Positions 2,408 through 22,465 of a stretch of 32,120 nucleotides of DNA are shown one piece after another; the first letter of the stretch is position 1; each line of letters opens with the position of its first letter. The notes under the pieces are model-generated. The model did not search any database and was not told the DNA's origin. It worked only from the letters and a program-made list of their open reading frames with translations. Source of the stretch: Draconibacterium orientale (GTDB taxonomy: Bacteria > Bacteroidota > Bacteroidia > Bacteroidales > FEN-979); assembly GCA_020718225.1 (NCBI GenBank), contig DYSO01000015.1, positions 1 to 32,120 of the forward strand, read 5' to 3'. A program made the translations under genes and the position numbers.

Positions 2408-3946
2408 ATGAAATCTTTGGAAGAAGCGTATCAGTTATTTGAAGAAAAAAACCGGCAGGCCGAATTGGGAGGGGGTCGGGAAAAGATCGAAAAAATTCAT
2501 AAAAGCGGCCGGAAAACGGCGCGCGAACGTATTTATGCACTGCTCGACCCCGAAACTTTTGTGGAGATGGACAAACTGGTTACCCACCGTTGCAGTGATT
2601 TCGGAATGGAAAAAAATAAAGTCTCCGGCGACGGGATGATTACCGGTTACGGTAAAATTGATGGACGGATGGTTTTTGTGTTTGCCCAGGATTTTACGGT
2701 ATTTGGGGGTACCATGAGCCGTGCAAATGCCGATAAAGTGGTAAAAATCATGGATATGGCAATGCGGATGGGCGCCCCGCTGATCGGATTGAACGATTCG
2801 GGCGGCGCCAGGATACAGGAAGGGGTGGAAAGCCTGGCCGGTTATGCCGATATATTTTACCGCAATGTCATGGCCTCAGGGGTGATCCCACAAATTTCGG
2901 CCATCTTTGGCCCATGTGCCGGTGGCGCAGTCTATTCGCCGGCCATGACCGATTTTATTCTGATGGTCAGAGAATCAAGCTATATGTTTGTTACCGGTCC
3001 AGAAGTTATTAAAACGGTGACCCATGAAGAAGTTACCATGGAAGAACTTGGCGGGGCAATGTCGCACAACACGCGCAGTGGCGTTGCCCATTTTGTTGCA
3101 GAGAACGATGAACAGATCGTGCTGATGATCCGTGAACTGGTCAGCTTCTTACCTTCCAACAATATGGAAGATCCTCCAATTCAACCCTGCACCGATGATG
3201 TGATGCGCCAGGATGAAAAACTTCAAACCATCATCCCGGCCGATCCAAATAAACCTTACGACATGAAAGAGATCATCACCTCGGTGGCCGATAACCACAA
3301 TTTTTTTGAAGTGATGCCTTTTTATGCCCAGAACATCCTTACAGGCTTTGCCCGTTTGGGTGGAAAACCGGTTGGAATTGTGGCAAACCAACCTGCCTTC
3401 CTGGCCGGGGTCCTCGATATCAACTCATCGGTTAAAGCGGCCCGGTTTGTCCGGTTTTGCGACTGTTTTAATATTCCCCTGATCACCTTTGTTGATGTTC
3501 CGGGCTTTCTTCCAGGCACGGTTCAGGAATTTGGAGGGATTATCAAACACGGGGCTAAATTGCTGTATGCTTTTTCAGAAGCCACTGTACCGAAAATCAC
3601 AGTAATCACCCGCAAAGCCTATGGGGGGGCATACGATGTGATGTCAAGTAAACACATCGGGGGCGATGTGAATTATGCCTATCCTACCGCTGAAATTGCC
3701 GTCATGGGACCCGAAGGCGCCGTGAATATCATCCACAAAGGAAAACTCAATGAAGCCGACCGTGCCATCGCCGTAAACAATTACCGTGAAACTTTTGCTA
3801 ACCCTTACAAAGCGGCAGAACTTGGATACATCGATGAAATTATACTTCCCCGGCAAACACGGCTGAAATTGATCCGCGCACTCGAGTTGACCCAGAATAA
3901 GAATAAAACAAATCCACCGAAAAAACACGGTAATATCCCCCTCTGA
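2408..3946 (+). CDS. pccB: Acyl-CoA carboxylase carboxyltransferase (propionyl-CoA carboxylase beta type)
   Basis: Transfers carboxyl from carboxybiotin to an acyl-CoA, probably propionyl-CoA giving methylmalonyl-CoA. The 512-residue length is normal for PccB/MmdA. Residues 1-55 have the family start with [19 protein letters not shown]. The N-terminal crotonase half has [17 protein letters not shown] and the oxyanion-hole region [17 protein letters not shown]. The C-terminal half has [19 protein letters not shown] and [14 protein letters not shown]. The closely related methylmalonyl-CoA decarboxylase alpha subunit shares these motifs. The adjacent ATP-dependent biotin carboxylase, and the absence of membrane decarboxylase subunits here, favour a carboxylase. 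The 84-base gap from the carrier gene has no obvious terminator, so the three genes are probably one operon. Confidence 0.9.
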
Positions 3947-3959
3947 TCTGCTATTTGTG

Positions 3960-4035: not shown

Positions 4036-7000
4036 ATGAAACATTTATATTCAACTGCTTTCCTTTTTATTGCCCTGATTGTAATCCCATTCATGGGCCA
4101 CTCCCAGCAAAAGCACGAACGCCGGTTTAAAACGGTATATCCTTATGCAACCAGAGTTTATGACTCAATTACAGCTGCCCGGATCCCGGCGCTTGAGGTA
4201 CCTGAATCACGCCTGAAAACCAGCCTTCCGGAATCGGTCGATAATTCTGAAAATGAATTTTGGTCAGGATTGCTCGATCAGTACCAGTTTTACAGTTGCC
4301 AGCAATATGCCGGGGTTGCTTATACCTTTGGTTATGAGTATAACCGTTTGAGGAACACACCCGGCTGGTATTGGGAAAACCGTTTTGCGGCACACTATAC
4401 CTGGAATTATCTCAATGAGGGTGGACGATACACCGGCGTAAACTTCCTCCATAGCTTTGATGTGATACGGCAACAGGGCCACATGACAAACAATTACTAC
4501 GGCACGGATACCACAGGCTTTTATCTGGGATGGGCCACCGGGTATAATAAATATTATTCCGGGATGCAACACCGCTTAAAACAGGTATATGCCATTCCCA
4601 TCAACAGCCAGACGGGGATCAATACCCTCCGGCATTACCTGTACGATCATTTAGACGGATCGGAGACTGGCGGTGTTGCCTGCTTTACTACCGACAGTTG
4701 GTTCGAAATGGGTCAGCTGCCCCCTGGGACGCCCGAGGCTGGAAAAAGCATCCAGCTTTGGTGGCACTCTACCCCCGATCATGGTTTGTGTATCGTTGGA
4801 TACAACGACTCCATCCGCTATGACGTGAATAACGATGGACAATTTACCAACGATATCGATATTAACGGAGATGGCATTGTGGATGCCAAAGATTGGGAAA
4901 TCGGCGGATTCAAATTTGCCAACTCCTGGGGATACTGGTGGGAAAACGAAGGCTTTGCCTATGTCCTTTACAGCGCCATGGCCAACAATTATGAAGCGGG
5001 CGGGGTTTACAACAACCAGGTGTATATCGTAAAGGCCGATACCGGATACCATCCGTTGCTGACAACCAAAGTGAAAATTGACTATACAAAACGCCAGCGC
5101 ATCCGCCTTATCGCCGGTGTCAGCTCCGATACCCTGGCCACTTTTCCTGAACATACCATCACCTTCCCCCTGGTCAATTTTCAGGGAGGCGACCATGTCA
5201 TGAATGGGTTCGACGAGGGACCGGGCTCAAAAGCAATAGAAGTGGGCCTTGATATTACCCCTTTGATGAACTGGTTCCCTGAAAATGGTAAAGCCAGATT
5301 GTTCCTGGGCGTCGAGGAACGCGATCCCGACCATTCCGGTTCAGGGGCCATCCTGGAAGCCTCCTTTCTGAGTTATACCCAGTTCCCGCAGGAATTTTAC
5401 GCTACAACAACGGCAGTCGATATTCTTGATAACGACCTGACCTTGATATCAGCCATTGCAACAGCAAACACATCAAGGGTTGAAATAACGACCACTGAAA
5501 TACCACCCTACATCCCTGGTCAGCATATTCAGGCCCAATTGGAGGCTACAGGAGGGACTGCCCCATACACCTGGGCGCTTCAACAAAAATATTCAAAACA
5601 ACCCTTTGCCGCAACTATCCCTGCCAATACAGGGGCCCAACTGACAAAAATCAGCAACCTGAGGCCCTATGCTGCCCGGGCCCTTCCCTTCCCATTTCCA
5701 TATTACGGAACAAGGAAGGATAGCATTTATATCAACTTCAACGGTTTTGTCACCTTCGATCCCGACGCGCTGCCTGCCCCTTACATCACCGACGAACTCG
5801 CCATGATGCATATGTTCCCGTTGATCTGTCCTGCGTTTTCACAGTTCTATACCTACATCCCTTCAAAAAACGACGGCGTGTTCTACAAAGCCGATGCTTC
5901 CTCTGTGGTCATTTGGTGGAAAACCTCCGTGGTTGGACATGAATACAATTCAAATAATAATTTTGCCATTACATTATATCCCGACGGACAAATTGAATTT
6001 TATTACGGGAATATGAATACCGGACCGGTTTTACCAACCATTTATACCGGGATATCAAAGGGGGATAACACCAATTTCGACATTGCCGCCCAATGGAGCG
6101 CCGATACCCTCTCCGGAAATGCAATCCGGTATCTTGCACTGCCTAACCCTGCAGGGATCAGCATCAGCCCGGATGGAAACCTTAAAGTCTTAGAAGCCGA
6201 CTCCTCTCTGATCTATTCCATTCCTGTTGTTGTTACCGATGAAGAGTACCTCACCGATTCGCACTCCTATACCCTGTCATCCGGATTACAACTTTCCCAC
6301 GAACTTGTTTGCGGCGAAGAGGGCCAACTCATTTTTGGCTTTCCTGCACATCTGAAATTAACACTGAAAAATCTGGGACAAACCAATATCCATAACCTGG
6401 TTGTCAGGCTGCAATCCATGGATAGCTCCTGTGTGATTACCGACAGCTTACTGTCAATTCCCCTTCTTTTGCCCGGCGAACCGGTTATTTTTGAGGAGGT
6501 TTTTAATTTCTCCCTGATTAAAAACCTTCCGGATGGGTATCCGGTAAGGTTCTCCCTGGAAGCACAAACCACCATGCGGTCGTGGCATGAAATCATGGAT
6601 ATCCCGGTTTTTGTCTCTTCAAACCAATCCATGGTGATGTTACATTCATTCCAAATCAACGATCCCGATGGCAAACTGTCAACAGGGGAGACTGTTGATC
6701 TGAATGTAACCATGGCGAACAACGGGAACCTGCCCGCCAGTAATGTCAGCGTTACATTATCATGCCATTCGCCCTATATTATCCCATTGGATACAACCGC
6801 TTTTTTTGGCGATTTCGCCCCGGGGGGAACCCTGACTGTGGAAAACGCCTATACCATTCAGGCTGCCTCCGATATTCCCGACGCAATACCCATCCCCTTC
6901 ACCCTGAAGGCTACCGATGGCGTTAAAATGTGGATCAGCAACTTTGAAATCACCCCTTATGCCCCGGCCTTCACGGTTGGCAGGATCGTGATTTCCGATG

Positions 7001-8883
7001 TTCAGGGAAATGGTAACGGAATTCTTGACCCGGGCGATGTTGCCGATATCCTTATTGCAACTTCCAATTCCGGCGGTTATCCGGCAACAGGGACGCTGGG
7101 TGTTCTGACCAGTTCCAGTCCGTATATTATCATCAATTCCGGATCCGCAAATCTTGGCAACATAGAACCCGGCGACACCGTGAATGCGGTATTCAATGTT
7201 TCTGTCAATCCCGATGCGCCACTCGGCACAACGGTTCCATTTACCTATACGGTAACCTCCGGTCTGTATATGGCCCAAAAACAGTTTACCCAAAAAATCG
7301 GTCTGGAAGTGGAGGATTTTGAAACCGGCGACTTTACCCGTTTCCCCTGGACCTTTGCCGGTACCCAACCCTGGATGATTACCGGTGATAATCCGTTTGA
7401 AGGATTGTTCTCTGCCCGATCGCACGCCATTGAAGATAATCAAACCAGCGAACTCCTGCTGCAAAGAAACACAACCATCCCCGATACCCTTTCATTCTTT
7501 TATAAAACCTCAACAGAGGCAGGCTACGATTACCTTATCTTTTATATCGACGGGGAAACCAAAGGACAATGGGCCGGTGAAACCCCCTGGACAAGGGCCG
7601 CATTTCCAGTGGCAGCCGGAGAGCATACCTTCCGTTGGAAATATATGAAAGACGCAGGCGTAATAGCAGGGAGCGATTGTGTTTGGATCGATTATGTCGA
7701 ACTCCCTTCAACAGGTGAAACCGGTGCCCGGATTTCGGGTTCCGTAACCTATGCAAACACGGTTCACACACCACTCGCTGCCCTGACAGTAAATCTGAAA
7801 AACAATGATGGCGCCGTCATTCAAACCGCCACCACCAATGGTTCCGGGCTCTATCTCTTTTCACACGTACCTCCCGGCGCCTATTCTTTCGATGTCGCTA
7901 CAGCAAAACCCTGGAATGGGGTTTCTGCAGCCGATGCATTGCTTTTCAGCAAACACATTGCCGCCATCTCTTCTCTGACAGGCATTTGGCTCGCTTCGGG
8001 CGATGTTAACCAATCCGGATTGCTGACTGCACTGGATGTATTGCTGATAAAAAAAAGGATCGCGGCCATCACCAACTCCTTCCCTTCAGGCGACTGGCTT
8101 TTTAACCACCAGCCTTTTACCCTTGCAACAACCAATATAATACAGGATTTTAACGGAATTACCTTCGGTGACGCCAATGGATCGTATATCCCATCCGTAC
8201 AAAAATCCAATGTAAAAAAGGGCCTTATCGCCTTGGGTACGGTCAACGGAGGAAATAGGGATCTATCCATTCCTGTTTATATTTCGGATATTGAAAACAT
8301 GGGCGCGTTCCAGTTCTCCATCAAGTACGATGCAAATGAACTTTACAACGCAAACATTACCGGTTGGATGGCTGGTATTGAAGATGTGACCATTGGCTAT
8401 CCGGAGCCCGGGATCCTCACATTCGTTTGGGTGGCAAGAGAAAAAGGGATTTCTATCCGCAATGGGGTCTTGTTTACCTTTCATTTCCTATCTGTTTCCA
8501 CCGCTGAATCTGCTCTCACTTTTACAGAAAACCCCACAGCCATTGAATTTACCGATTTCGACGGAAATGGATTTATCCCCGACCTGATCGGAGGCTCCGT
8601 GAATTCGTTCGCCGCGACCGGGATGGACCCTGTACCGGGTTTTTTGGTTTATCCAAATCCAAACGACGGAAAATTTTATCTTTATCCCGGACCGGATAAG
8701 ATATCCGTTTCCGTCAGAGTCGTTAATTCATTAGGCATGGTTGTTTATGAGAAAAAGGATGTTGATGTTGCCACATCTCCCTCCCTTTGGTTGGATCTGG
8801 GCAAGCAGCCGGAAGGAGTCTATATAGTGGCTATTGACGATAAACAGCAGGTTACCTATCAAAAAATTGTGATTGGCAGATAA
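4036..8883 (+). CDS. T9SS-exported papain-like (C1) peptidase with dockerin-like and cohesin-like modules
   Basis: Start chosen at 4036 because it begins a clean signal peptide (MKHLYSTAFLFIALIVIPFMGHSQ); the open frame reaches 3955 only through a TTG and lacks a signal there. The product is 1615 residues. Papain-type active site: oxyanion Gln82, nucleophile Cys88 (spacing 6 as in papain), His249 in PDHGLCIVGYND, Asn296 in FANSWGYWW. Between His and Asn is an Asp/Asn-rich calcium-loop-like insert (about 263-286). After it come an Ig-like segment and a beta domain with LPFPFPYYG and INFNGFVTFD (about 540-705), CARDB-like repeats (about 720-1090), a MAM/jelly-roll-like domain (1091-1230), a carboxypeptidase-regulatory-like domain (1232-1300), a dockerin-like repeat GDVNQSGLLTALDVLLIKKR (about 1322), a cohesin-like domain (about 1389-1523), and a T9SS sorting domain (VYPNPNDGKF, 1535-1615). 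Substrate unknown. Domain borders are estimates by eye. Confidence 0.85.
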   Translation: MKHLYSTAFLFIALIVIPFMGHSQQKHERRFKTVYPYATRVYDSITAARIPALEVPESRLKTSLPESVDNSENEFWSGLLDQYQFYSCQQYAGVAYTFGYEYNRLRNTPGWYWENRFAAHYTWNYLNEGGRYTGVNFLHSFDVIRQQGHMTNNYYGTDTTGFYLGWATGYNKYYSGMQHRLKQVYAIPINSQTGINTLRHYLYDHLDGSETGGVACFTTDSWFEMGQLPPGTPEAGKSIQLWWHSTPDHGLCIVGYNDSIRYDVNNDGQFTNDIDINGDGIVDAKDWEIGGFKFANSWGYWWENEGFAYVLYSAMANNYEAGGVYNNQVYIVKADTGYHPLLTTKVKIDYTKRQRIRLIAGVSSDTLATFPEHTITFPLVNFQGGDHVMNGFDEGPGSKAIEVGLDITPLMNWFPENGKARLFLGVEERDPDHSGSGAILEASFLSYTQFPQEFYATTTAVDILDNDLTLISAIATANTSRVEITTTEIPPYIPGQHIQAQLEATGGTAPYTWALQQKYSKQPFAATIPANTGAQLTKISNLRPYAARALPFPFPYYGTRKDSIYINFNGFVTFDPDALPAPYITDELAMMHMFPLICPAFSQFYTYIPSKNDGVFYKADASSVVIWWKTSVVGHEYNSNNNFAITLYPDGQIEFYYGNMNTGPVLPTIYTGISKGDNTNFDIAAQWSADTLSGNAIRYLALPNPAGISISPDGNLKVLEADSSLIYSIPVVVTDEEYLTDSHSYTLSSGLQLSHELVCGEEGQLIFGFPAHLKLTLKNLGQTNIHNLVVRLQSMDSSCVITDSLLSIPLLLPGEPVIFEEVFNFSLIKNLPDGYPVRFSLEAQTTMRSWHEIMDIPVFVSSNQSMVMLHSFQINDPDGKLSTGETVDLNVTMANNGNLPASNVSVTLSCHSPYIIPLDTTAFFGDFAPGGTLTVENAYTIQAASDIPDAIPIPFTLKATDGVKMWISNFEITPYAPAFTVGRIVISDVQGNGNGILDPGDVADILIATSNSGGYPATGTLGVLTSSSPYIIINSGSANLGNIEPGDTVNAVFNVSVNPDAPLGTTVPFTYTVTSGLYMAQKQFTQKIGLEVEDFETGDFTRFPWTFAGTQPWMITGDNPFEGLFSARSHAIEDNQTSELLLQRNTTIPDTLSFFYKTSTEAGYDYLIFYIDGETKGQWAGETPWTRAAFPVAAGEHTFRWKYMKDAGVIAGSDCVWIDYVELPSTGETGARISGSVTYANTVHTPLAALTVNLKNNDGAVIQTATTNGSGLYLFSHVPPGAYSFDVATAKPWNGVSAADALLFSKHIAAISSLTGIWLASGDVNQSGLLTALDVLLIKKRIAAITNSFPSGDWLFNHQPFTLATTNIIQDFNGITFGDANGSYIPSVQKSNVKKGLIALGTVNGGNRDLSIPVYISDIENMGAFQFSIKYDANELYNANITGWMAGIEDVTIGYPEPGILTFVWVAREKGISIRNGVLFTFHFLSVSTAESALTFTENPTAIEFTDFDGNGFIPDLIGGSVNSFAATGMDPVPGFLVYPNPNDGKFYLYPGPDKISVSVRVVNSLGMVVYEKKDVDVATSPSLWLDLGKQPEGVYIVAIDDKQQVTYQKIVIGR

Positions 8884-8915
8884 ACCGGGAAAGGCGACCT
8901 CAACAATTGTATCCT

Positions 8916-11900
8916 ATGCAGTATCGGTACATACTCTGCTTCTTTTTATCAGCCTGGGTTTTTTCTGTTCTGCCATGCTTCGGACAGCATTTCCCAAAAC
9001 GGGGTAAAATTCCTGCTTATCCTTACCATGCAAGAGTTTACGATTCGATCGCCGCATCCCGTATTCCGGTGCTTAATATTCCGGAATCACAACTGAAAAG
9101 GAGTTTGCCTGCCTCCGTTGATAATTCAGAACATGATTTCTGGCCTGGGTTACTCGATCAGTTCCAGTTTTACAGCTGCCAGCAATATGCTGGCGTTGCC
9201 TATACTTTTGGTTATGAGTTTAACCGTTTGAGGAACACTCCCGGCTGGTTGTGGGAAAACCGTTTTCCTGCGCATTATACCTGGAATTACCTGAACGAAG
9301 GCGGTCGCTATATTGGCGCTAATTTCCTCCATAGTTTTGATCTAATACGGCAACAGGGGCACATGACCAACCTGTTTTTCGGGGAAGATACGTCCGGTTC
9401 ATACCTGGGATGGAAATCAGGATACGATCTATACCACAGCGGGATGTACAACCGGTTAAAACAGGTTTATGCCATACCCATCAACAGTGAAGCAGGAATT
9501 AATACCCTTCGGAATTACCTGTACGACCATGTTGACGGTTCTGCTACCGGGGGAGTCGCCTGTTTTACCACCGATAGCTGGTTTGAGATGGCACCGTTGC
9601 CCCCCGGAACGCCCGAGTCAGGAAAAAGGGTCCAGCTTCGGTGGCGCCCTCATCCCGACCATGGATTGTGTATCGTTGGATACAATGATTCTATCCGTTA
9701 TGATTTGAACAATGACGGGACCTATACCAATGATATCGATATTAATGAAGATGGCATTGTGGATGCCAAAGACTGGGAAATCGGCGGATTTAAATTTGCC
9801 AACTCATGGGGTTATTGGTGGGAAAACGAAGGTTTTGCTTATGTATTGTACAGCGCCATGGCTTCCAATTATGAAGCCGGTGGCGTCTGGAACAACCGTG
9901 TTTATATCGTACAGCCCGATACCGGTTATCATCCGCTGCTGACCCTGAAAGTAAAAATTGATTACAACAAGCGACAACGTATCCGGCTCATTGCCGGGAT
10001 CAGCACCGATACGTTATCTTTTTTCCCCAAACATACAATGTCATTTCCTGTTGTTAATTTTCAGGGTGGCGACAATGTGATGTCAGGATATGTCAATGAC
10101 CCGGAATCAGGGGCTGTTGAATTAGGTCTGGATGTAACCCCGTTGCTTAACTGGTTTCCGACTGTCGGTCCTGCCCGGTTATTTGTTGGAGTGGAAGAAC
10201 ACGATCCTGACCATTCCGGTTCCGGTTCTGTTCAGCAGGCCTCTTTTTTATGTTATACTGTTGGACAACAGGAATTTACGGCAACAACAACGCCGATCAG
10301 CATTCTTGACAACGACCTCACCCTGATTTCCGCAATTGCCACTGTTAACGCTCCCCGGGTCGAAATCACCACCACCGAACTACCTCCAGTTATCCCGGGC
10401 CAGCCATATGAAACCCGGCTTGAAGCTTCCGGCGGGTCGTTGCCCTACACCTGGTCACTGCATGAAACCTATTCAAAACAGTTTTATTATAGTCCCTTGC
10501 CTCCCAATACCGGAACACCGTTGTCCAAAATAAGTGACCTGATGCCTTTTGCAGCCATGGCGCTTCCTTTTTCTTTCCCTTTCTATGGTAAGATGTACGA
10601 CAGCATTTATATCAATTTTTATGGATTCGTCTCCTTCGACCCTCAGGCCATCCCAGCGCCCTACATCACCGATGAACTGGCAATGATGCGCATGTTCGCC
10701 ATGATCAGTCCGGCCTTTTCACAATTCTATACCTATGTGCCTTCAAAAAATGACGGAGTCTTTTTTTATGCCGATGCCACCGTCGTAATGATCCATTGGA
10801 AAACTTCTGTTCAGGGTTCTGCAAATAATTCAAATAATAACTTTGCGCTGCTTCTCTATCCGGACGGAAGCTTTGAATTTCGATACGGACTGATGGATAC
10901 CGGACCTGTTTTACCTGCGGTTTACTCCGGTATTTCAAAAGGGGATTCACATAATTTTGACATAAAGACTGAATGGCGTGCCAACAACCTGAACGGGAAT
11001 GCCATAAGGTATCTGCCATTGCCTTTCCCTACAGGATTGACCCTCTCCCCGGATGGGCTGCTGAAAACCGCAGGGATCGATGCGACTCAAATATTTTCCG
11101 TTCCCGTGATGGTTACCGATGAAGAAAACATGACCGGATCTAAATTGCTGACTTTGTCCGGCGGATTGGGATTGACCTGGGAATTGGTTTCGGGGGAGGA
11201 TGGCTTCCTGATTTTCGGCCAACCGGCCAGCCTCACCCTGACATTAAAAAATACCAGCCAAACAGCCATTCCAAATGGCATGGTCAAACTTCGGTCGATG
11301 GATACCTCCTGCCTGGTCACAGATAGTATCCTTTTGCTGCCAATGCTGGGTCCGGGCCAACAGATGACATTCAATGAAGTATTTAAATTCGCCATCATGG
11401 ATCACCTCTCCTGCGAATACCCTGCAAGGCTTGCCCTCGATGTGTATGGCGGGACTCGATCCTGGCATCATATTCTGGAAGTACCGGTTGCTGCACCACA
11501 ACTGGAATTTTTATCTCCCCAGGTACCCGATGGTCATAACGACAGGCTCGATCCGGGCGAAATTACCGACCTGGCTGTCCGCCTCAATAATCTGGGGAAC
11601 TTCAGGGTGGAAGATGTCAGTATTCAACTGGAATCTCTTGACACTTTGGTACAGATTCAATCGGATGCGGTTCAATGGATCGGAAGGGTTAATCCGCTAT
11701 CTCAACATAAAAGCAGGTTCCGCATAAAAGCTTCCCGCAGTACTCCGTCGGGTTATATAGTCCCGATGCGGCTGACAGCATTTTTTGATACCATTCTGTA
11801 CCAACGATTGGACTTTTCGCTTACTGTCGGAAAAAAAGCGGTGGCAATCGTAAACCTTTCGGCAGCAAACACATCGATGGCTGCCATGCAGATGGCGATG

Positions 11901-12977
11901 GACAGCATCGGGGTCGGATACGATTCGCTTAGGACCCTGAATACAACACTCTCTGAATATGAGAGCGTGTTTCTTATCCTCGGTCATACCACACAAGGCG
12001 CCCATTCACTGAATTCTGCTGAATCAAAGCTGCTTTCACAATATCTCGAAGAACACGGGAATCTTTATATGGAAGGTTATTTCACATGGTACTATACCGA
12101 CAATACGGTACTGCATCCCTATTTTAAATATACTACCGACAATTGTTCCCTTTACACCTTCGACCAGGTCATCGGAGTATCCGGGACTCTTACCGATGCA
12201 ATGTCATTTGAATATTCGGGATATCCCGATTTTAGTTTGTTTACATTTATCCCACAGGAGTCTGCTTACAGCACATTGATCGATCCCGGATTCCCTCTCC
12301 GCAATTTTGAGATTGTATATCCCGGCCCCGGTTATAAAACCATCGGGACTTTTCTGGAGTTCGCTTCCATGGACGAAAGCGTTGAACCTTCAACGCGTCG
12401 TACACTGATGCAGCATTATCTCGAATTTTTCAATATCAATCTTTCCGGGCCCTATGTTCTGTTTCATACCGATAAAACCAACCTGCGCCCGGGCTTATCG
12501 GTTTTTTTTACCGACGACTCTTACCATGATATCCTGTCATGGCAATGGGAATTTCCGGGAGGCGACCCGGCCACATCCAATGAACCCAATCCATCGGTTA
12601 TGTATAACGTACCCGGGGCCTTTGATGTAAAACTTACCGTTTCCGACGGGGTTCATACCCGCTCCATGACACGGAAAAATTATATTCTTGTAAATTACCC
12701 CACCGGCCTGAACGAGCCGCGACTCTCACTCAAACTTGCGGTTTATCCCAATCCGGCAAAAAACCAGGCCATCGTTTCATGGAGTGGACCTGTGCCTGGA
12801 GATGGAGTTCTTTCACTGATAAATTCCATGGGAAAAAAAGTGATGGAGAAGGGCATCGATGGATTGACATTCCAAAAAAAGTGGGTTTTAAACCTGAGAG
12901 GCCTGGCACCTGGTATCTACTTCCTCAAACTTCAAACCAAATCCGGAATTGCCGTCGAAAAATTAATGGTGAATTAG
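8916..12977 (+). CDS. T9SS-exported papain-like (C1) peptidase, tandem paralogue, with Rossmann-like and PKD domains
   Basis: Start at the ATG at 8916 (upstream codon 8907 is TTG); MQYRYILCFFLSAWVFSVLPCFGQ is a signal peptide. The product is 1353 residues. Over the first 300 residues it aligns to the upstream protein without gaps: Gln82, Cys88, His249 and Asn296 occupy the same numbers, and residues 241-310 are identical at 62 of 70 positions. The calcium-loop-like insert, the INFYGFVSFD beta domain and a CARDB-like region follow in the same order. It then diverges: about 975-1178 looks like a Rossmann or class I amidotransferase/ThuA-like domain (VAIVNLSAANTSMAAM, VFLILGHTT, YLEEHGNLYMEG), then a PKD domain (WQWEFPGGDPATSNEPNPSV, about 1182-1263) and a T9SS sorting domain (VYPNPAKNQA, about 1275-1353). 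Only 32 bases separate it from the first gene, so co-transcription is likely. Its stop overlaps the convergent methyltransferase stop. Confidence 0.85.
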   Translation: MQYRYILCFFLSAWVFSVLPCFGQHFPKRGKIPAYPYHARVYDSIAASRIPVLNIPESQLKRSLPASVDNSEHDFWPGLLDQFQFYSCQQYAGVAYTFGYEFNRLRNTPGWLWENRFPAHYTWNYLNEGGRYIGANFLHSFDLIRQQGHMTNLFFGEDTSGSYLGWKSGYDLYHSGMYNRLKQVYAIPINSEAGINTLRNYLYDHVDGSATGGVACFTTDSWFEMAPLPPGTPESGKRVQLRWRPHPDHGLCIVGYNDSIRYDLNNDGTYTNDIDINEDGIVDAKDWEIGGFKFANSWGYWWENEGFAYVLYSAMASNYEAGGVWNNRVYIVQPDTGYHPLLTLKVKIDYNKRQRIRLIAGISTDTLSFFPKHTMSFPVVNFQGGDNVMSGYVNDPESGAVELGLDVTPLLNWFPTVGPARLFVGVEEHDPDHSGSGSVQQASFLCYTVGQQEFTATTTPISILDNDLTLISAIATVNAPRVEITTTELPPVIPGQPYETRLEASGGSLPYTWSLHETYSKQFYYSPLPPNTGTPLSKISDLMPFAAMALPFSFPFYGKMYDSIYINFYGFVSFDPQAIPAPYITDELAMMRMFAMISPAFSQFYTYVPSKNDGVFFYADATVVMIHWKTSVQGSANNSNNNFALLLYPDGSFEFRYGLMDTGPVLPAVYSGISKGDSHNFDIKTEWRANNLNGNAIRYLPLPFPTGLTLSPDGLLKTAGIDATQIFSVPVMVTDEENMTGSKLLTLSGGLGLTWELVSGEDGFLIFGQPASLTLTLKNTSQTAIPNGMVKLRSMDTSCLVTDSILLLPMLGPGQQMTFNEVFKFAIMDHLSCEYPARLALDVYGGTRSWHHILEVPVAAPQLEFLSPQVPDGHNDRLDPGEITDLAVRLNNLGNFRVEDVSIQLESLDTLVQIQSDAVQWIGRVNPLSQHKSRFRIKASRSTPSGYIVPMRLTAFFDTILYQRLDFSLTVGKKAVAIVNLSAANTSMAAMQMAMDSIGVGYDSLRTLNTTLSEYESVFLILGHTTQGAHSLNSAESKLLSQYLEEHGNLYMEGYFTWYYTDNTVLHPYFKYTTDNCSLYTFDQVIGVSGTLTDAMSFEYSGYPDFSLFTFIPQESAYSTLIDPGFPLRNFEIVYPGPGYKTIGTFLEFASMDESVEPSTRRTLMQHYLEFFNINLSGPYVLFHTDKTNLRPGLSVFFTDDSYHDILSWQWEFPGGDPATSNEPNPSVMYNVPGAFDVKLTVSDGVHTRSMTRKNYILVNYPTGLNEPRLSLKLAVYPNPAKNQAIVSWSGPVPGDGVLSLINSMGKKVMEKGIDGLTFQKKWVLNLRGLAPGIYFLKLQTKSGIAVEKLMVN

Positions 12978-13627
12978 ACTTGCAGGGTTTTATTTGTTTG
13001 ACTGTGGTTGCTGTAGGTTGGCCATTCAATTTTATATTCAAGGGCCTGATCACCGAAAACATCCCAGCCTTTCCTGTTGCCCCTGGCAAAAATCTCAAGG
13101 TAAGGGCCTGGGCTGCAGCGTTCAATCAATTCATATAATGCATCGGGTTTACGGGAATGTTCCTGTTTCTGGGTCCGGATGATGTTCACCTGGCTTCTTC
13201 CCGGCGATAAGGTACGCATGCTGCCCCGGATTCCAAAGAGAACCAATTCAGTTGTATTTCGAAAATAAAAACCCACGCCCCTTCCATCTGGTCCGCCATC
13301 TTTTCTCACTTTATGCCAGACGATGTTTGATTTATAGTTGAAACCCCATGCCTTCATTACTGCCAAACCCTCTGGGAGTAAAGCATTTGGCACCCATAAA
13401 TAGAGGTGGCTTTTTGCTGCTGCCACAGATTGAACCGGTATTTGTTGAATTTCCTCGAAGGACAAAGTATCATAGCGTGATAATCTTTTATGTTCAGGGG
13501 CAATTTTTCCGGTCCGGTTAAGAAATCGCCAGGGAGGATCTGCCAATATAGCAGCATATTCTTTATTACAGAGACTTTCAATAAAACTGGCAACAACCGG
13601 ATTAATTTTATCTTTAATCATTTTCAT
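12974..13627 (-). CDS. MT-A70 family adenine-N6 DNA methyltransferase of a restriction-modification pair
   Basis: Transfers methyl from S-adenosylmethionine to adenine N6, presumably protecting the sites cut by the neighbouring endonuclease. The catalytic motif ADPPWRF (DPPW at residues 30-33) and downstream YLWVPNALLPEG, NIVWHKVRKDG and TTELVLFGIRG follow the MT-A70 pattern, and the C-terminal PDALYELIERCSPGPYLEIFARG is the usual AdoMet-binding end. About 217 residues is normal for the prokaryotic group. The ATG at 13627 overlaps the endonuclease stop by 14 bases; ATG 13621 is the alternative. Overlap with the upstream gene implies coupled expression. The 3' end overlaps the convergent peptidase stop by 4 bases. 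The GATC-containing target is an inference from the partner. Confidence 0.9.
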   Translation of the reverse strand: MKMIKDKINPVVASFIESLCNKEYAAILADPPWRFLNRTGKIAPEHKRLSRYDTLSFEEIQQIPVQSVAAAKSHLYLWVPNALLPEGLAVMKAWGFNYKSNIVWHKVRKDGGPDGRGVGFYFRNTTELVLFGIRGSMRTLSPGRSQVNIIRTQKQEHSRKPDALYELIERCSPGPYLEIFARGNRKGWDVFGDQALEYKIEWPTYSNHSQTNKTLQV

Positions 13628-14204
13628 CAAGCAATTTTTTTGTTATTCCAAAAACCAATATCGGACATCCCCCTCCACCGCCTCCTTCAATTCGTGGTAA
13701 CAATTTCGACATATGTGTTGTGGACATTCCAAAAGAGGAACCTCTACCAATTGTTTTAAAAATGTTTTGCAAATGATCACATCGGGTAATAATTATTCCA
13801 ATACTGATTGCCCGTAAATCAAACAGAAGCCGAAAATTATTAAGATCCCGGTCAAAGAAAGGATCTTTATTATTCCATTCTATTTCAATAGCAACCCTGT
13901 TTTTATAGCAATCGACCTTATGTGTGGGTGATTCTGTTAGTTCCTCATCCACCATTACCGAGGTGTCAAATTCTTTTTCGATCCACCCTTTTTTATACAA
14001 AAAGGAATCAATTGAATTCGAAACCTTTGATTTATTTCCGCCACCTTCAAGAATCCAGCGTTTTTTAAGTTTGAATTGCATTAAAAGCCGGATTATATCA
14101 TCCCATTCTTCAGGAAAATCCTGATATAAAATGGCACAAGGATGTTTCCATTCATATACTTCATAATTATTGAGTACGTATTCCGGAAGAAGGTTTATCC
14201 CCAT
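13614..14204 (-). CDS. BglII/BstYI-like type II restriction endonuclease
   Basis: Predicted to cut DNA at a BglII-type (GATC-core) site. The PD-(D/E)xK-like centre is visible as HKVDCYKNRVAIEIEWNNKD: Asp98, Glu107 and Glu109. The spacing (9, then 2) equals Asp84-Glu93-Gln95 of BglII as I recall it, with Glu at the last position. The C-terminal STTHMSKLLPRIEGGGGGGC followed by PILVFGI is characteristic of this family. Start chosen at ATG 14204 (about 196 residues) rather than GTG 14228, because a perfect -7 box (TATCTTTG) covers the GTG. The gene overlaps the methyltransferase downstream. Base composition is far lower in G+C than the neighbours (18 of 60 in 13981-14040 against 38 of 60 in 14521-14580), which suggests horizontal acquisition. 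The exact recognition sequence cannot be read from the sequence. Confidence 0.82.
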   Translation of the reverse strand: MGINLLPEYVLNNYEVYEWKHPCAILYQDFPEEWDDIIRLLMQFKLKKRWILEGGGNKSKVSNSIDSFLYKKGWIEKEFDTSVMVDEELTESPTHKVDCYKNRVAIEIEWNNKDPFFDRDLNNFRLLFDLRAISIGIIITRCDHLQNIFKTIGRGSSFGMSTTHMSKLLPRIEGGGGGGCPILVFGITKKLLDEND

Positions 14205-14227
14205 GAATGGGTGTTGTTTTAATAACA

Positions 14228-14235
14228 CAAAGATA
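14228..14235 (-). promoter_or_regulatory. -7 box of the restriction-modification module
   Basis: TATCTTTG on the minus strand matches TAnnTTTG exactly. Transcription about 6 bases downstream would leave a leader of under 20 bases before the ATG at 14204. The -7 box overlaps the upstream GTG codon and therefore argues against it as a start. It is divergent from the promoter of the M20 amidohydrolase. Confidence 0.55.
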
Positions 14236-14265
14236 CACTTTTAAAGCGCATCCCCGTTTGGTTTG

Positions 14266-14297
14266 TTGATAACTGAACCAAACATTTTTTACCTTTG
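14266..14297 (+). promoter_or_regulatory. Candidate promoter of the M20 amidohydrolase gene
   Basis: TTG at 14266-14268, 21 bases, then TACCTTTG at 14290-14297, a full two-element match to the Bacteroidetes promoter. The expected transcription start near 14303 supports the ATG at 14320 over upstream in-frame codons. Confidence 0.55.
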
Positions 14298-14319
14298 CGT
14301 TTCTTTCAATCCGTTTTTA

Positions 14320-15528
14320 ATGGAGCATTTGAAGCGTCAGATCGAAATACTATCGACATCCGTTTATGATGAAGTGGTGGAAATCCGCCGCCACTTTCAC
14401 CAGTATCCCGAACTCTCATGCGAAGAATTCAAAACGGCCGGATATATCTGCGAAAAACTCGTTGAATACGGGATCCCTTATGTGGATGGGGTTGCCGGCA
14501 CCGGCATTGTCGGGCTGATCGAAGGCAGGAACCCTTCCTCCCGGTGTATTGCACTGCGGGCCGACATGGATGCGCTCCCAATCCTGGAATTAAATGACGT
14601 TGTTTATAAATCGGTCGTCCCGGGGAAAATGCATGCCTGTGGCCACGATGTCCATATGGCCTCCCTGCTCGGCGCTGCCAAAGTACTCACCGGAATAAAG
14701 GACCAATTTGAAGGGACCGTTAAATTGATTTTTCAACCCTCCGAAGAGCGATATCCGGGCGGCGCCATCCGGATGATCGAAGCAGGGGCCCTTGAAAATC
14801 CCAAACCCCAATACGTCATCGCCCAGCATGTAATCAATAACCTTGAAGCCGGCGATGCAGGGATGATGGCAGGGGCTTACATGGCCTCTACCGACGAATT
14901 TTTTATAACGGTCCGGGGAAAAGGGGGACATGCCGCCACTCCCGATCAGGTGGTGGACCCCATTCTTATTGCATCGCATATTGTGATTGCCCTTCAGCAA
15001 ATCGTCAGCCGGAATGCCAATCCAGTCATGCCTACCGTAATTTCTGTTGGCAGGATCACGGGCGAAGGCCGCACCAACATCATCCCCGACGAAGTGCGGT
15101 TGGACGGCACGGTCCGTACATACGATGAGGCATGGAGAAAAGCGGTACATCAGCGGATCCGGGATATCGCCATATCCTTGGCCGAAGGAATGGGCGCCCG
15201 ATGCGAAGTCAACATTGCCCATGGATACCCTTTCCTTTATAACGATCCAGCCCTGACGGAAAAACTGCGTAGCTTGGCCAAAGGCTATCTGGGCCCCGGT
15301 CATGTTAAAGATCTTGAAAAAAGAATGACCGCCGAAGATTTTTCCTATTTCGCCCAAAAAATCCCATCCTGCCTCTTTCGCCTGGGAATCTCAAACACCC
15401 TTCAGGGGATCAATGCAAACCTTCATGCCGCTGATTTCAATGTGGATGAACATTCGCTCAAAACCGGTACCGCCCTCCTGGCATGGTTCTCGGTTAACCT
15501 GCTTGCACCATTAAAGGAAACGGGATGA
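14320..15528 (+). CDS. M20D family metallo-amidohydrolase / N-acyl amino acid hydrolase
   Basis: Hydrolyses an amide bond of an N-acylated amino acid or similar compound in the cytoplasm. The 402-residue protein (ATG 14320) has the family start EIRRHFHQYPELSCEE. Metal-site residues are visible: Cys108 and His110 in HACGHD, Glu143 in FQPSEE, His170 in AQHV, and a C-terminal His in NLHAADFNVDEHS. IALRADMDALPI and RMTAEDFSYF are also typical. The dimerisation domain lies between about 185 and 300. There is no signal peptide. The frame extends upstream to 14263 but that start lies inside the promoter. Members include hippurate hydrolase, IAA-amino-acid hydrolase and N-acetyl-diaminopimelate deacetylase; the substrate cannot be chosen from sequence alone. 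The next gene overlaps its stop as ATGA. Confidence 0.9.
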   Translation: MEHLKRQIEILSTSVYDEVVEIRRHFHQYPELSCEEFKTAGYICEKLVEYGIPYVDGVAGTGIVGLIEGRNPSSRCIALRADMDALPILELNDVVYKSVVPGKMHACGHDVHMASLLGAAKVLTGIKDQFEGTVKLIFQPSEERYPGGAIRMIEAGALENPKPQYVIAQHVINNLEAGDAGMMAGAYMASTDEFFITVRGKGGHAATPDQVVDPILIASHIVIALQQIVSRNANPVMPTVISVGRITGEGRTNIIPDEVRLDGTVRTYDEAWRKAVHQRIRDIAISLAEGMGARCEVNIAHGYPFLYNDPALTEKLRSLAKGYLGPGHVKDLEKRMTAEDFSYFAQKIPSCLFRLGISNTLQGINANLHAADFNVDEHSLKTGTALLAWFSVNLLAPLKETG

Positions 15529-20047: not shown

Positions 20048-22465
20048 ATGCTTAATATCAACCGTTTTTTCGTTGTACTTGTTCCACTGATAATATTGCT
20101 CTCCTTTGCTTTCCATCAATCGGTCTATGCCCAGTCAGGGACAGTGAAAGGCCGTGTATTAAACCATAAAAACAACGAACCGGTCCCTTTTACCAACATT
20201 ATCATCGATGGTGAACCAACCCGGGGGGTTACCAGTGATGTGGATGGAAATTTTACTTTTACCGGCGTCAACCCGGGCTATATCCGGCTGGTGGCCTCCT
20301 CAGTCGGTTTTAACCGGTTCATAACCGAAGATTTCCTGGTGACACGCTCCCATCCGGTTTTTATCGATATCCTTATGAGTGAAATGGTTGTTAACCTGGA
20401 TGCTGTTGAGGTTCGGCCAGATGTAATTGCCCGAAAACCGGAAAGTCCGGTTTCCATGCAAACACTTACCATTCAGGAAATTGAACGTAGCCCCGGATCA
20501 AATCGGGATATTTCACGTGTCATTCAAACCCTGCCGGGTGTTGCCTCAACCCCCTCGTTCAGGAACGATGTTATTGTCAGAGGGGGAGGCCCCAGCGAAA
20601 ACCGGTTTTTTCTCGATGGCGTCGAAATTCCTTATATCAACCACTTTTCTACACAGGGGGCCTCCGGTGGACCGGTCGGCATCATCAATGTGGATTTTAT
20701 CAGGGATGTGGAACTCTATTCAAGCGCTTTTCCGGCCAACCGTGGAAATGCGCTCAGCTCGGTAATGGAATTGAAACAAATCGATGGGAAAAGGGAAAAA
20801 ATCGGAGGCAGGTTTTCCATCGGTTCCAGCGACATTGCCCTTACCCTTGACGGGCCTATAACTAAAAATTCCTCACTGATCTTGTCTGTCCGCCGTTCCT
20901 ACCTTCAATTGCTCTTTTCAGCGTTGAAACTTCCTTTCCTTCCAACCTATAACGATTATCAGTTTAAATATAAGATCGACCTCAATAAACGAAATCAGTT
21001 GACGGTAATATCATTGGGGGCCCTCGACCACTCTAAATTAAATACCGGGATTCAGAATCCCGACAGTTATCAGCAGTATTTGCTTGGTTATCTGCCTGTC
21101 CTTGACCAGTGAAGTTACACCGTTGGGATTGTTTACAGGCATTTTCGCGAAAATGGTTACGACACCTGGGTCGTCAGCCGGAACATGCTCAATAACGATC
21201 AGGTTAAATACTTTAACAATGTTGAACTTCCCGATAGTTTGATTTTGAAATACAATTCTACCGAAACCGAAAATAAAATCCGGTATGAAGGATTGACACA
21301 GCTGGGCGACTGGAAAATTATGTATGGGGCTGGCCTGGAATATGTGAAATATACAAATAAAACCTACCAGAAACTTTTTATTAAAAATGAGGTCCGGATC
21401 CTCGATTATAATTCTATGATCGATTTCTTTAAGTGGAACATCAACGGACAGGTCACCAAACCGTTTTTTAATGAAAAACTGACGCTCTCACTCGGGCTCC
21501 GTTTGGATGCAAACAGTTACAGCAGCCTTATGAGCAATATGCTGGAGCAGGTTTCCCCCCGCTTTTCATCCTCCTGGAATTTCACAAATAAATGGTACCT
21601 GAATTTCAATGTTGGCCGCTATTATCAGTTGCCGGCATATACCACATTGGGGTTTCGCGATAACCGCGGCGACCTGGTCAATGATTCACTGGGGGTCAGA
21701 TATCTTTCAGCCGACCATGTTGTTCTTGGACTGGAGTTTCTTCCAAAACAAAATTCAAAAATTTCATTAGAAGGATTTTACAAATTTTACCGGAAATACC
21801 CTTTTTCACTCCTCGATTCCGTTTCAATTGCCAGTAAGGGAACCAATTATGGCGCCTTTGGCGATGAAGCAGTAACCTCTACATCCAACGGAAAGTCATA
21901 TGGGTTTGAACTTTACTATCGGGATGCCGATCTTTTCCGTTTCAACATTGTAGCATCCTATACCTTCGTCAGAAGCGAGTTTACCGATTTTTCAGGGGAT
22001 TATATCCCATCTGCCTGGGATAACCGGCATCTGATTAGTATTCTGATCGGCAGAAAATTCAAACACAACTGGGAGTTGGGGGCCAGGTGGCGTTTCGTGG
22101 GAGGGGCCCCCTATACCCCCTGGGATGAAAATAAATCAAGTCTTGTTTCCGCATGGGATGCACAGGGGAGGGGATATCTCAATTATGATGCCTTTAATAC
22201 CCTGCGACTGAAATCGTTCAATCAACTCGATTTACGGATCGATAAGGGTTTTTATTTTAACAACTGGTCGCTGATGTTGTATCTCGATATTCAGAATGTG
22301 CTCAACTTCCAATCGAACCAGCCCGATATCCTTGTCAATACCCAGCCCGATGGGTCAACAATCAAATTTATCGGCCCGGAAGGGAATGAAAGGTATCTTC
22401 TGCATACCATCTCCGGTTCCTCAGGGACCATCCTTCCGGCCATCGGGATTATGATCGATTTTTAA
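20048..22465 (+). pseudogene. TonB-dependent outer-membrane receptor interrupted by one in-frame TGA
   Basis: The 806-codon frame is open except for TGA at 21110-21112 (codon 355). After it the same frame continues for 24 codons (SYTVGIVYRHFRENGYDTWV and on) before the next ATG at 21185, so there is no frameshift. Residues 1-29 are a signal peptide, 32-115 a carboxypeptidase-regulatory-like domain (SGTVKGRVLNHKNNEPVPFT), about 125-235 the plug (VIVRGGGPSENRFFLDGVEI), and the rest a beta-barrel ending in IGIMIDF with a terminal Phe. In related receptors the interrupted place reads Asn-Gln-Trp-Ser/Asn-Tyr, so TGG to TGA at a Trp codon is the simplest explanation. An intact receptor would import a siderophore, peptide or glycan; no SusD partner is present. 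Either a recent nonsense mutation or a base-call error is possible. Confidence 0.85.

Follow-up and report, generated by a model that had tools for sequence, protein, structure and literature searches.

Two adjacent papain-like proteins with T9SS sorting domains in Draconibacterium orientale, one of which carries an exchanged dockerin-cohesin tail

The stretch of DNA analysed here, referred to as the window, comprises 32,120 nucleotides of a Draconibacterium orientale genome (GenBank assembly GCA_020718225.1, contig DYSO01000015.1) and carries two neighbouring genes, P1 and P2, that code for long papain-like proteins ending in sorting domains of the type IX secretion system (T9SS). The explanation favoured here, with a probability of about 0.64, is that both products are exported papain-like peptidases with a calcium-loop insert, and that P1 is the derived member of the pair, equipped with a borrowed tail that most likely places it in a surface dockerin-cohesin assembly. 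The genome of the window (G000; 3.27 Mb in 275 contigs, 94.6% complete, the window being contig C217) was compared with 61 genomes of relatives, 19 of which, including G000, form one genus, with 393 genomes sampled from the order, and with 395 sampled evenly from the phylum.

The gene pair and the extent of its shared part

P1 and P2 are separated by 32 bases on a common strand, within the slot that holds the ancestral gene (see below). A preliminary description of the locus had reported two adjoining genes on one strand, with Gln82, Cys88, His249 and Asn296 at identical positions and a T9SS sorting domain at the end of each protein, and these points are borne out: both open reading frames (ORFs) were found, the four residues have the same numbers in P1 and P2 and are kept in 65-70 of 70 relatives, and TIGR04183 matches the two C-termini at 41.2 and 38.1 bits (cut-off 23). 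The same description took the first 300 residues to align without gaps and the C-terminal halves to differ completely, and both statements have to be redrawn. Specifically, small gaps occur within the first ~35 residues, and from there the alignment is almost gapless to about residue 860, with 64% identity across 966 aligned positions (BLASTP, E = 0.0). Identity reaches 81% across residues 40-390 and, in 60-residue windows of P1, amounts to 73-88% at residues 61-360, 47-72% at 361-840 and 36% at 841-900, and to 10-27% past residue 900 in the windows that could be scored. Relatedness is thus absent only from the C-terminal ~755 residues of P1 and ~490 residues of P2, whose closing sorting domains nonetheless belong to one family; a difference across the whole second half is ruled out by the BLASTP alignment and the windowed identities. 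Over residues 21-350, the nonsynonymous divergence (dN) is 0.14 and the synonymous divergence (dS) 1.39, and this excess of dS is consistent with purifying selection; a related specificity of the two proteins is plausible from their likeness.

The coordinates of the genes, of their domains and of the two genes used as anchors in the comparison of genomes are collected in Table 1. The domain specific to the P2 type has no match in Pfam, and its profile retrieved from the PDB only matches with E values of 0.63 and 0.89; P2 contains neither a dockerin nor a cohesin over the Pfam cut-offs. Hydrophobic N-terminal leaders are recognisable by eye in both proteins. Export of P1 and P2 through the T9SS is plausible because SprA (TIGR04189), the sole part of the translocon that was searched, is encoded in G000 (2614 bits); the system would carry both proteins over the outer membrane, where they would be fixed to the surface or released.

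Table 1. Genes, domains and flanking anchors at the P1-P2 locus, in positions of the window
Feature	Position	Strand	Evidence or comment
P1, 1615 aa	4036-8883	+	Start ATG at 4036; open frame reaches back to a TTG at 3955
P1 papain-like peptidase domain (~residues 60-335; Q82, C88, H249, N296)	4213-5040	+	Conservation, profile-profile comparison
P1 His-Asn insert (residues 258-290) with calcium-loop-like repeats DVNNDG / DINGDG	4807-4905	+	D263, N265, D267, G268 in 70/70
P1 shared accessory modules (residues ~340-755), common to P2	5053-6300	+	NIDO match at 562-639, sub-threshold
P1 swapped tail, first part (residues 863-1228)	6622-7719	+	NEW3-like start (PF10633 at 883-910) and further modules
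P1 CarboxypepD_reg (PF13620, residues 1233-1287)	7732-7896	+	33.9 bits, cut-off 32.3
P1 dockerin region (residues 1284-1386; Dockerin_1 at 1296-1342)	7885-8193	+	28.8 bits, cut-off 22.9
P1 cohesin (residues 1402-1525; Pfam 1410-1501)	8239-8610	+	25.3 bits, cut-off 24.1
P1 T9SS type A sorting domain (residues 1538-1613; Por_Secre_tail, over its Pfam cut-off)	8647-8874	+	TIGR04183
P2, 1353 aa; ancestral, widespread architecture	8916-12977	+	ATG at 8916
P2 papain-like peptidase domain (~residues 60-335)	9093-9920	+	
P2 calcium-loop-like His-Asn insert (residues 258-290)	9687-9785	+	
P2-type-specific domain (residues 970-1190)	11823-12485	+	38-62% identity in six aligned relatives
P2 PKD domain (residues 1188-1247)	12477-12656	+	36.3 bits, cut-off 23.5
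P2 T9SS type A sorting domain (residues 1276-1352)	12741-12971	+	TIGR04183
Left anchor, 512 aa carboxyltransferase-like protein (named by eye)	2408-3946	+	88-90% identity in fetched genus regions
Right anchor, amidohydrolase-like protein (named by eye)	14263-15528	+	68-75% identity in fetched genus regions

A papain-like domain with a two-loop insert

The catalytic positions of the N-terminal domain are nearly invariant in the 70 relatives, from which eight fragment or duplicate ORFs had been excluded beforehand: Cys and His are present in all 70, Gln in 69 and Asn in 65, with Asp in three, and their order (Gln, Cys, His, Asn) is that of the peptidase family C1 set. Between His and Asn lies an insert organised in two 12-residue steps, in which the four invariant positions listed in Table 1 are joined by D275 (69 of the 70 relatives) and D279 (68 of 70); these two loops probably bind Ca2+. 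In the proposed mechanism, Gln82 (oxyanion hole), Cys88, His249 and Asn296 would form the catalytic set, and the insert, once Ca2+ is bound, would keep the active-site half in shape, making the enzyme, which would work outside the cell, calcium-dependent.

The relation to papain was assessed by profile-profile comparison (hhalign) of 70 family members with nine C1 domains, which gave a Prob of 98.2 (E 4.6e-14, 189 columns), paired all four catalytic residues, and treated the residues separating the His motif from the Asn motif as an insert; the two families are also alike in their HGxxxVGYND and NSWG-like motifs. The C1 set consists of nine canonical domains from related genomes chosen by their NSWG-type motif, a choice that favours the C-terminal part, and it was therefore checked by removing the Asn motif on both sides, with a resulting Prob of 95.1 (E 3.1e-8). 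Five controls (the reversed family against C1; the family against C25, M14 and BNR; the reversed family against C25) gave Prob values of at most 0.3, and 20 column-shuffle controls of at most 1.7.

Several results weigh against a peptidase of the papain type. PF00112 has no match in P1, P2 or 20 family members at E values up to 1, and the PDB search with the family profile returned 3ois alone, at the NSWG-like motif and with an E of 0.74. The Gln/Cys half by itself reaches a Prob of only 21.5 (E 0.001), and AlphaFold2 run on the peptidase region with four near-identical rows gave an unusable model (predicted local distance difference test, pLDDT, 32.2). Moreover, a Trp after the catalytic Cys is usual in C1 peptidases, and in the 70 relatives this position is held by G (37), Q (23), N (4), E (3) or A (3) and never by Trp. 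The Pfam scan of P1 and P2 matched no peptidase family, and in the PDB search with P1 by itself the sorting domain was found with an E of 0.0006 and all remaining matches lay above 0.6.

Since PF00112 does not match, hhalign links the domain to C1 with a Prob of 98.2, and the Cys is never followed by Trp, the N-terminal domain is classified, on the strength of its sequence, as papain-like and as a family of its own rather than a member of C1. The earlier designation of P1 and P2 as papain-type peptidases hence stands as regards the profile similarity, with its controls, and the four conserved residues, and falls short as regards the Pfam family: searches of the N-terminal region named no non-peptidase or other family, and did not name C1 either, and membership of the Pfam C1 family as such is ruled out by the missing PF00112 match in P1, P2 and 20 members. 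Altogether, P1 and P2 form a real, conserved papain-like pair that is probably active and of which one member is derived.

The family was detected in at least 93 of the 393 genomes from the order, corresponding to at least 62 of 207 genera, and in 33 of the 61 relatives, and a family that is unnamed in Pfam is thereby defined. In the even sample of the phylum, it was matched in four of 395 genomes, namely G000 and three with weak partial matches, and a scan of viral contigs with the family alignment returned 18 pattern matches and no relatives. To date, members of the family are known from a single order of Bacteroidota. Its members lie side by side, with gaps of up to 358 bases, in at least 12 other genomes of the order. 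Among 13 tandem loci, selected for at least two close matches on one contig among the matches listed, the gap within a same-strand pair is at most 40 bases in ten, and two members lie no more than 358 bases apart in 12; in nine of the 13 loci (L161-L169), the match between the mates stops well short of the end of the longer tail. In the tree, the mates mostly belong to different old branches, with some sisters in G754 and G056. Uniqueness of the tandem pair as such is ruled out by these neighbouring members in at least 12 other genomes, which are mostly old paralogues.

The tail of P1 and a putative dockerin-cohesin assembly

The tail of P1 is more interesting than the pair. Past about residue 862, P1 best matches an exported BNR-type protein of G000, with 61% identity over 369 residues, and in a tree of 22 tails, built from the fetched loci only and with proteins of more than one cohesin excluded, it falls near that protein with weak support (81/75). 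The block of CarboxypepD_reg, dockerin and cohesin was matched completely, with E values below 1e-115, 14 times in G000, 14 times in G008 and 13 times in G009, among the matches listed; the other 58 of the 61 genomes hold weaker matches only (1e-57 at best, among the matches listed), some of which span most of the model. In G009, a 51 kb contig (C186, L199) carries six tailed proteins.

Eight of the 14 tailed proteins of G000 are peptidases or members of the papain-like family: P1, a second family member (L062), three C25 proteins, one C1 protein with a lectin-like domain, and two M14 proteins. The others are two BNR proteins (one below the Pfam cut-off), a sortilin-like protein, a propeller protein (sub-threshold), an Omp28 protein and one without a named N-terminal domain. 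No glycoside hydrolase was found over the cut-off on any of the 14, the one GH43 match, in L062, scoring 17.8 bits against a cut-off of 32.2.

Judging from domain content, a cohesin-dockerin system exists in the genus, because multi-cohesin proteins occur, dockerin proteins lie beside cohesin proteins, and the gene upstream of the P1 type in G008 codes for a cohesin protein with a sorting domain. Specifically, PF00963 cohesins number at least 18 in G000, 28 in G008 and 15 in G009; one G008 protein holds three cohesins, and proteins of G010 and G012 hold four by a local model (three and four Pfam stretches). Dockerin proteins adjoin cohesin proteins in G010, G012, G001 and G003. In G000 itself, two proteins have a dockerin without a cohesin, and three have a cohesin without a full dockerin, one of them clipped by the contig end. 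In the proposed assembly, docking would proceed through the dockerin or cohesin of P1, which would in this way associate at the cell surface with the C25, C1 and M14 peptidases that the cell also makes, and P2 would work alone.

As a separate observation, four loci (L194, L195, L200 and L201, in G001, G010, G003 and G012, respectively) are clusters in which multi-cohesin proteins occur together with dockerin-tailed proteins of the beta-helix or SprB-repeat kind, most of them with T9SS tails; the Pfam dockerin model passes its cut-off in the beta-helix proteins of G010 and G012 and is not listed for the SprB-repeat proteins of G001 and G003.

An explanation that keeps appreciable, if lesser, weight is that in P1 the dockerin and the cohesin serve purely as a stalk, in which the two pair within the chain or the cohesin-like domain acts as a support, and that the tail is a cassette for T9SS export or spacing spread by recombination. 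The following results count for such a stalk or against an assembly. The dockerin and cohesin are adjacent in all 14 G000 tails, and a cohesin-like domain likewise follows the dockerin in all six of the weaker tails inspected (G001, G003, G010, G012); by profile, these six diverged domains reach a Prob of 96.8 to scaffoldin cohesins and 66.3 to G000 cohesins, and Pfam reports no cohesin in four of the six, those without a scaffoldin part. The domain after the dockerin could hence be its invariable companion or a stalk, and not a socket available for docking. Dockerins have two calcium loops, and P1 has a single canonical one, starting at D1323, its first repeat being degenerate; the same holds for all 14 G000 tails, in which loop positions 1, 3 and 5 of the first repeat are non-acidic and the second repeat is canonical, so that binding may be lost or altered. 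The P1 cohesin scores barely above its cut-off (25.3 against 24.1 bits), the tail also sits on BNR, sortilin-like, Omp28 and propeller proteins, and AlphaFold2 run on the dockerin-cohesin tail with two rows gave an unusable model (pLDDT 40.7). Furthermore, no multi-cohesin protein was seen in the inspected G000 loci, which hold, besides the tails, single-cohesin proteins only, with one candidate (L188) clipped by the contig end. Conversely, the second dockerin loop (D95, N97 and D106 of alignment A3) and the last motif (D151/N153) are invariant in 14 of 14 rows, G000 has the two dockerin proteins without a cohesin and the three cohesin proteins without a full dockerin noted above, and genus relatives have separate proteins with three to five cohesin stretches, which in four of these relatives lie beside dockerin proteins. 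These points argue against the stalk.

An origin of the dockerin-cohesin layout in the clade of G000, G008 and G009 is ruled out by the six tails with a diverged cohesin-like domain; sequence comparison makes the layout older than this clade. What is specific to the clade is the version of the tail with high similarity among its bearers, together with the acquisition of that version by P1. A more far-reaching form of the assembly would be a proteolytic surface polymer independent of a scaffoldin, in which 13-14 proteins of this clade, each with a plug and a socket, would chain unlike enzymes, the calcium-gated papain-like family included. Such a polymer is improbable, and its odds are lowered because genus members with multi-cohesin proteins likewise carry looser tails of a dockerin and a cohesin-like domain.

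Ancestry of the pair and comparison with known systems

The length and layout of P2 recur in 18 of the 19 genus genomes and also in the sister genera g4 and g8; in G016 the P2-type gene is split into two ORFs, and in G009 (a 91% complete assembly) no P2-type gene was found. Regions at the locus were fetched from 16 other genus members, a set that lies outside G000, G008 and G009, and in 14 of them the two anchors flank just one P2-type gene; as for the two exceptions, the contig of G005 stops before the second anchor, and neither anchor is seen in G015. P1-type genes are present in three of the 19 genomes, G000, G008 and G009, the last copy being clipped by the contig end. In a tree without the G009 P1 type and without G016, one clade (100/100) unites both types of G000 and G008 and excludes 15 other genus rows; within it the two P1 types group together (95/83), and the branching is otherwise unresolved. 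Because a single P2-type gene occupies the site in 14 of 16 members, P1 types occur in three of 19 genomes, and P1 and P2 types share one clade, these comparisons make P2 the ancestral form and P1 a derived chimera. The P2 gene would have been copied in the ancestor of the three-genome clade, and the P1 copy would have exchanged everything past about residue 862 for NEW3-like modules, CarboxypepD_reg, a dockerin, a cohesin and a T9SS signal. The preliminary description had proposed a duplication followed by replacement of the accessory modules, an order of events that agrees with the lone P2-type gene at 14 of 16 sites, the 100/100 clade and the presence of the P1 tail on other G000 proteins, with the correction that one gene alone changed its tail and that a smaller part was replaced. 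Of the neighbouring genomes, that 14 of 16 majority has the single P2-type gene at the site, and in G008 the two genes lie on separate contigs.

The arrangement in G008 counts against a general tandem order, since both of its genes lie away from the ancestral site, which is itself empty (L101, C395): no more than 241 bases separate the anchors, and tblastn found no gene remnant between them. It also bears on a different history, according to which P1 is not a local duplicate and came by transfer or long-range recombination, landing beside P2. This is unlikely, though it deserves some weight: over residues 61-840, G000 and G008 are 65-92% identical by window in their P1 types and 40-92% in their P2 types, neither G008 gene has anchors seen alongside, and G009 has a clipped P1-type gene and no P2-type gene found. 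Conversely, the single clade of P1 and P2 types, apart from the other rows of the genus, and the 32-base spacing of the two genes on one strand in the ancestral slot favour a duplicate of P2, and P1 may have been copied in place or have returned by recombination.

Other genes of the window were noted alongside. An MT-A70 methyltransferase (PF05063) and a BglII-type endonuclease (PF09195) gene (12974-14228, -) separate P2 from the right anchor; both were matched at five of the fetched genus loci and the methyltransferase alone at one further locus, a pattern that suggests gain and loss of this restriction pair at the site. A TonB-dependent receptor is present as two ORFs (20048-21112 and 21185-22465, +), both of which are matched by a single ORF of G007 (L047, clipped by the fetched end), and its split is a frameshift or an assembly error. 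Lastly, a large sortilin/BNR propeller protein (PF15902; 23785-27207, -) shares 28% identity with the propeller region of L067, a tailed G000 protein, and no tail domains are listed for the large protein.

The least probable of the alternatives is that the papain-like domain no longer is, or never was, a peptidase and, with its fold retained, acts in binding or as an adhesin, for acetyltransferases and deamidases are counted among the papain-like folds in a 2023 survey (PMC10318531), no Pfam C1 match or Trp after the Cys is present, and much of both proteins outside this domain matches non-catalytic modules (PKD, CarboxypepD_reg, cohesin), whereas the near-complete retention of Cys, His, Gln and Asn in relatives from several families of one order would be unexpected for a pure adhesin and dN lies well below dS between P1 and P2.

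Among known systems, peptidase family C1 (papain, PF00112, clan CA) resembles the P1/P2 family in the order of the catalytic residues, in the two motifs and in the profile match; it differs from that family in the latter's invariant two-loop calcium-type insert, lack of a Trp after the Cys, and long T9SS-tailed chains. Gingipains and other type A cargo of the T9SS are likewise exported cysteine peptidases with a Por_Secre_tail, and three C25 proteins of G000 share the P1 tail; C25 peptidases are caspase-like, and hhalign of the P1/P2 domain against three C25 domains gave a Prob of 0.1. A strict cellulosome displays glycoside hydrolases on dockerins, whereas the G000 tails are borne by proteins with no glycoside hydrolase family over the cut-off. 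Clostridial cellulosomes are not known to use T9SS export. Among the open-licence papers listed by the searches made, none on the papain-like family, on the P1 tail or on Bacteroidota peptidases with a dockerin and a cohesin was seen.

The word 'bacteroid' is absent from the main text of the 2023 survey of papain-like families (PMC10318531), and a study of single cells of cockroach-gut Bacteroidota lists dockerins without a cohesin (PMC10266427). The cellulosomes of A. cellulolyticus and B. cellulosolvens are described as including peptidases with dockerins, and some of their scaffoldins as holding a cohesin, a dockerin and a peptidase in one chain; they share with the present proteins the dockerin-bearing peptidases and differ in being centred on plant fibre (PMC3413522, PMC5590126). 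An X-dockerin protein of R. flavefaciens, whose structure is solved, combines a papain-like module with a dockerin, but this module is given as NlpC/P60-like rather than C1 (PMC3573020), and a papain-like module with a dockerin is reported to bind the ScaE cohesin (PMC5590126).

Two related complexes have been proposed outside Bacteroidota. For Ca. Stygibacter (Cloacimonadota), a cellulosome-like complex that digests protein among other polymers was proposed from the genome; in the passages that describe it, dockerins sit on C25 gingipain-like and S8/S53 peptidases, and a multi-cohesin protein has a C-terminal attachment domain (PMC8542988). In Ca. Stygibacter the enzymes have the dockerins and one large scaffoldin the cohesins (PMC8542988), whereas each tailed G000 protein carries both; multi-cohesin proteins are also found in the genus of the window. 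The 'Planctosome' of the Nemodlikiaceae (Planctomycetes) is a hypothetical peptide-degrading cohesin-dockerin complex with M14 peptidases, in which an adaptor protein, not each enzyme, combines a dockerin and a cohesin in one chain, and whose description, in its relevant part, mentions neither papain-like or C25 enzymes nor a T9SS (PMC6461901). If the tails described here do bind, protein digestion by these bacteria would be organised as an assembly, as has been proposed for Cloacimonadota and Planctomycetes.

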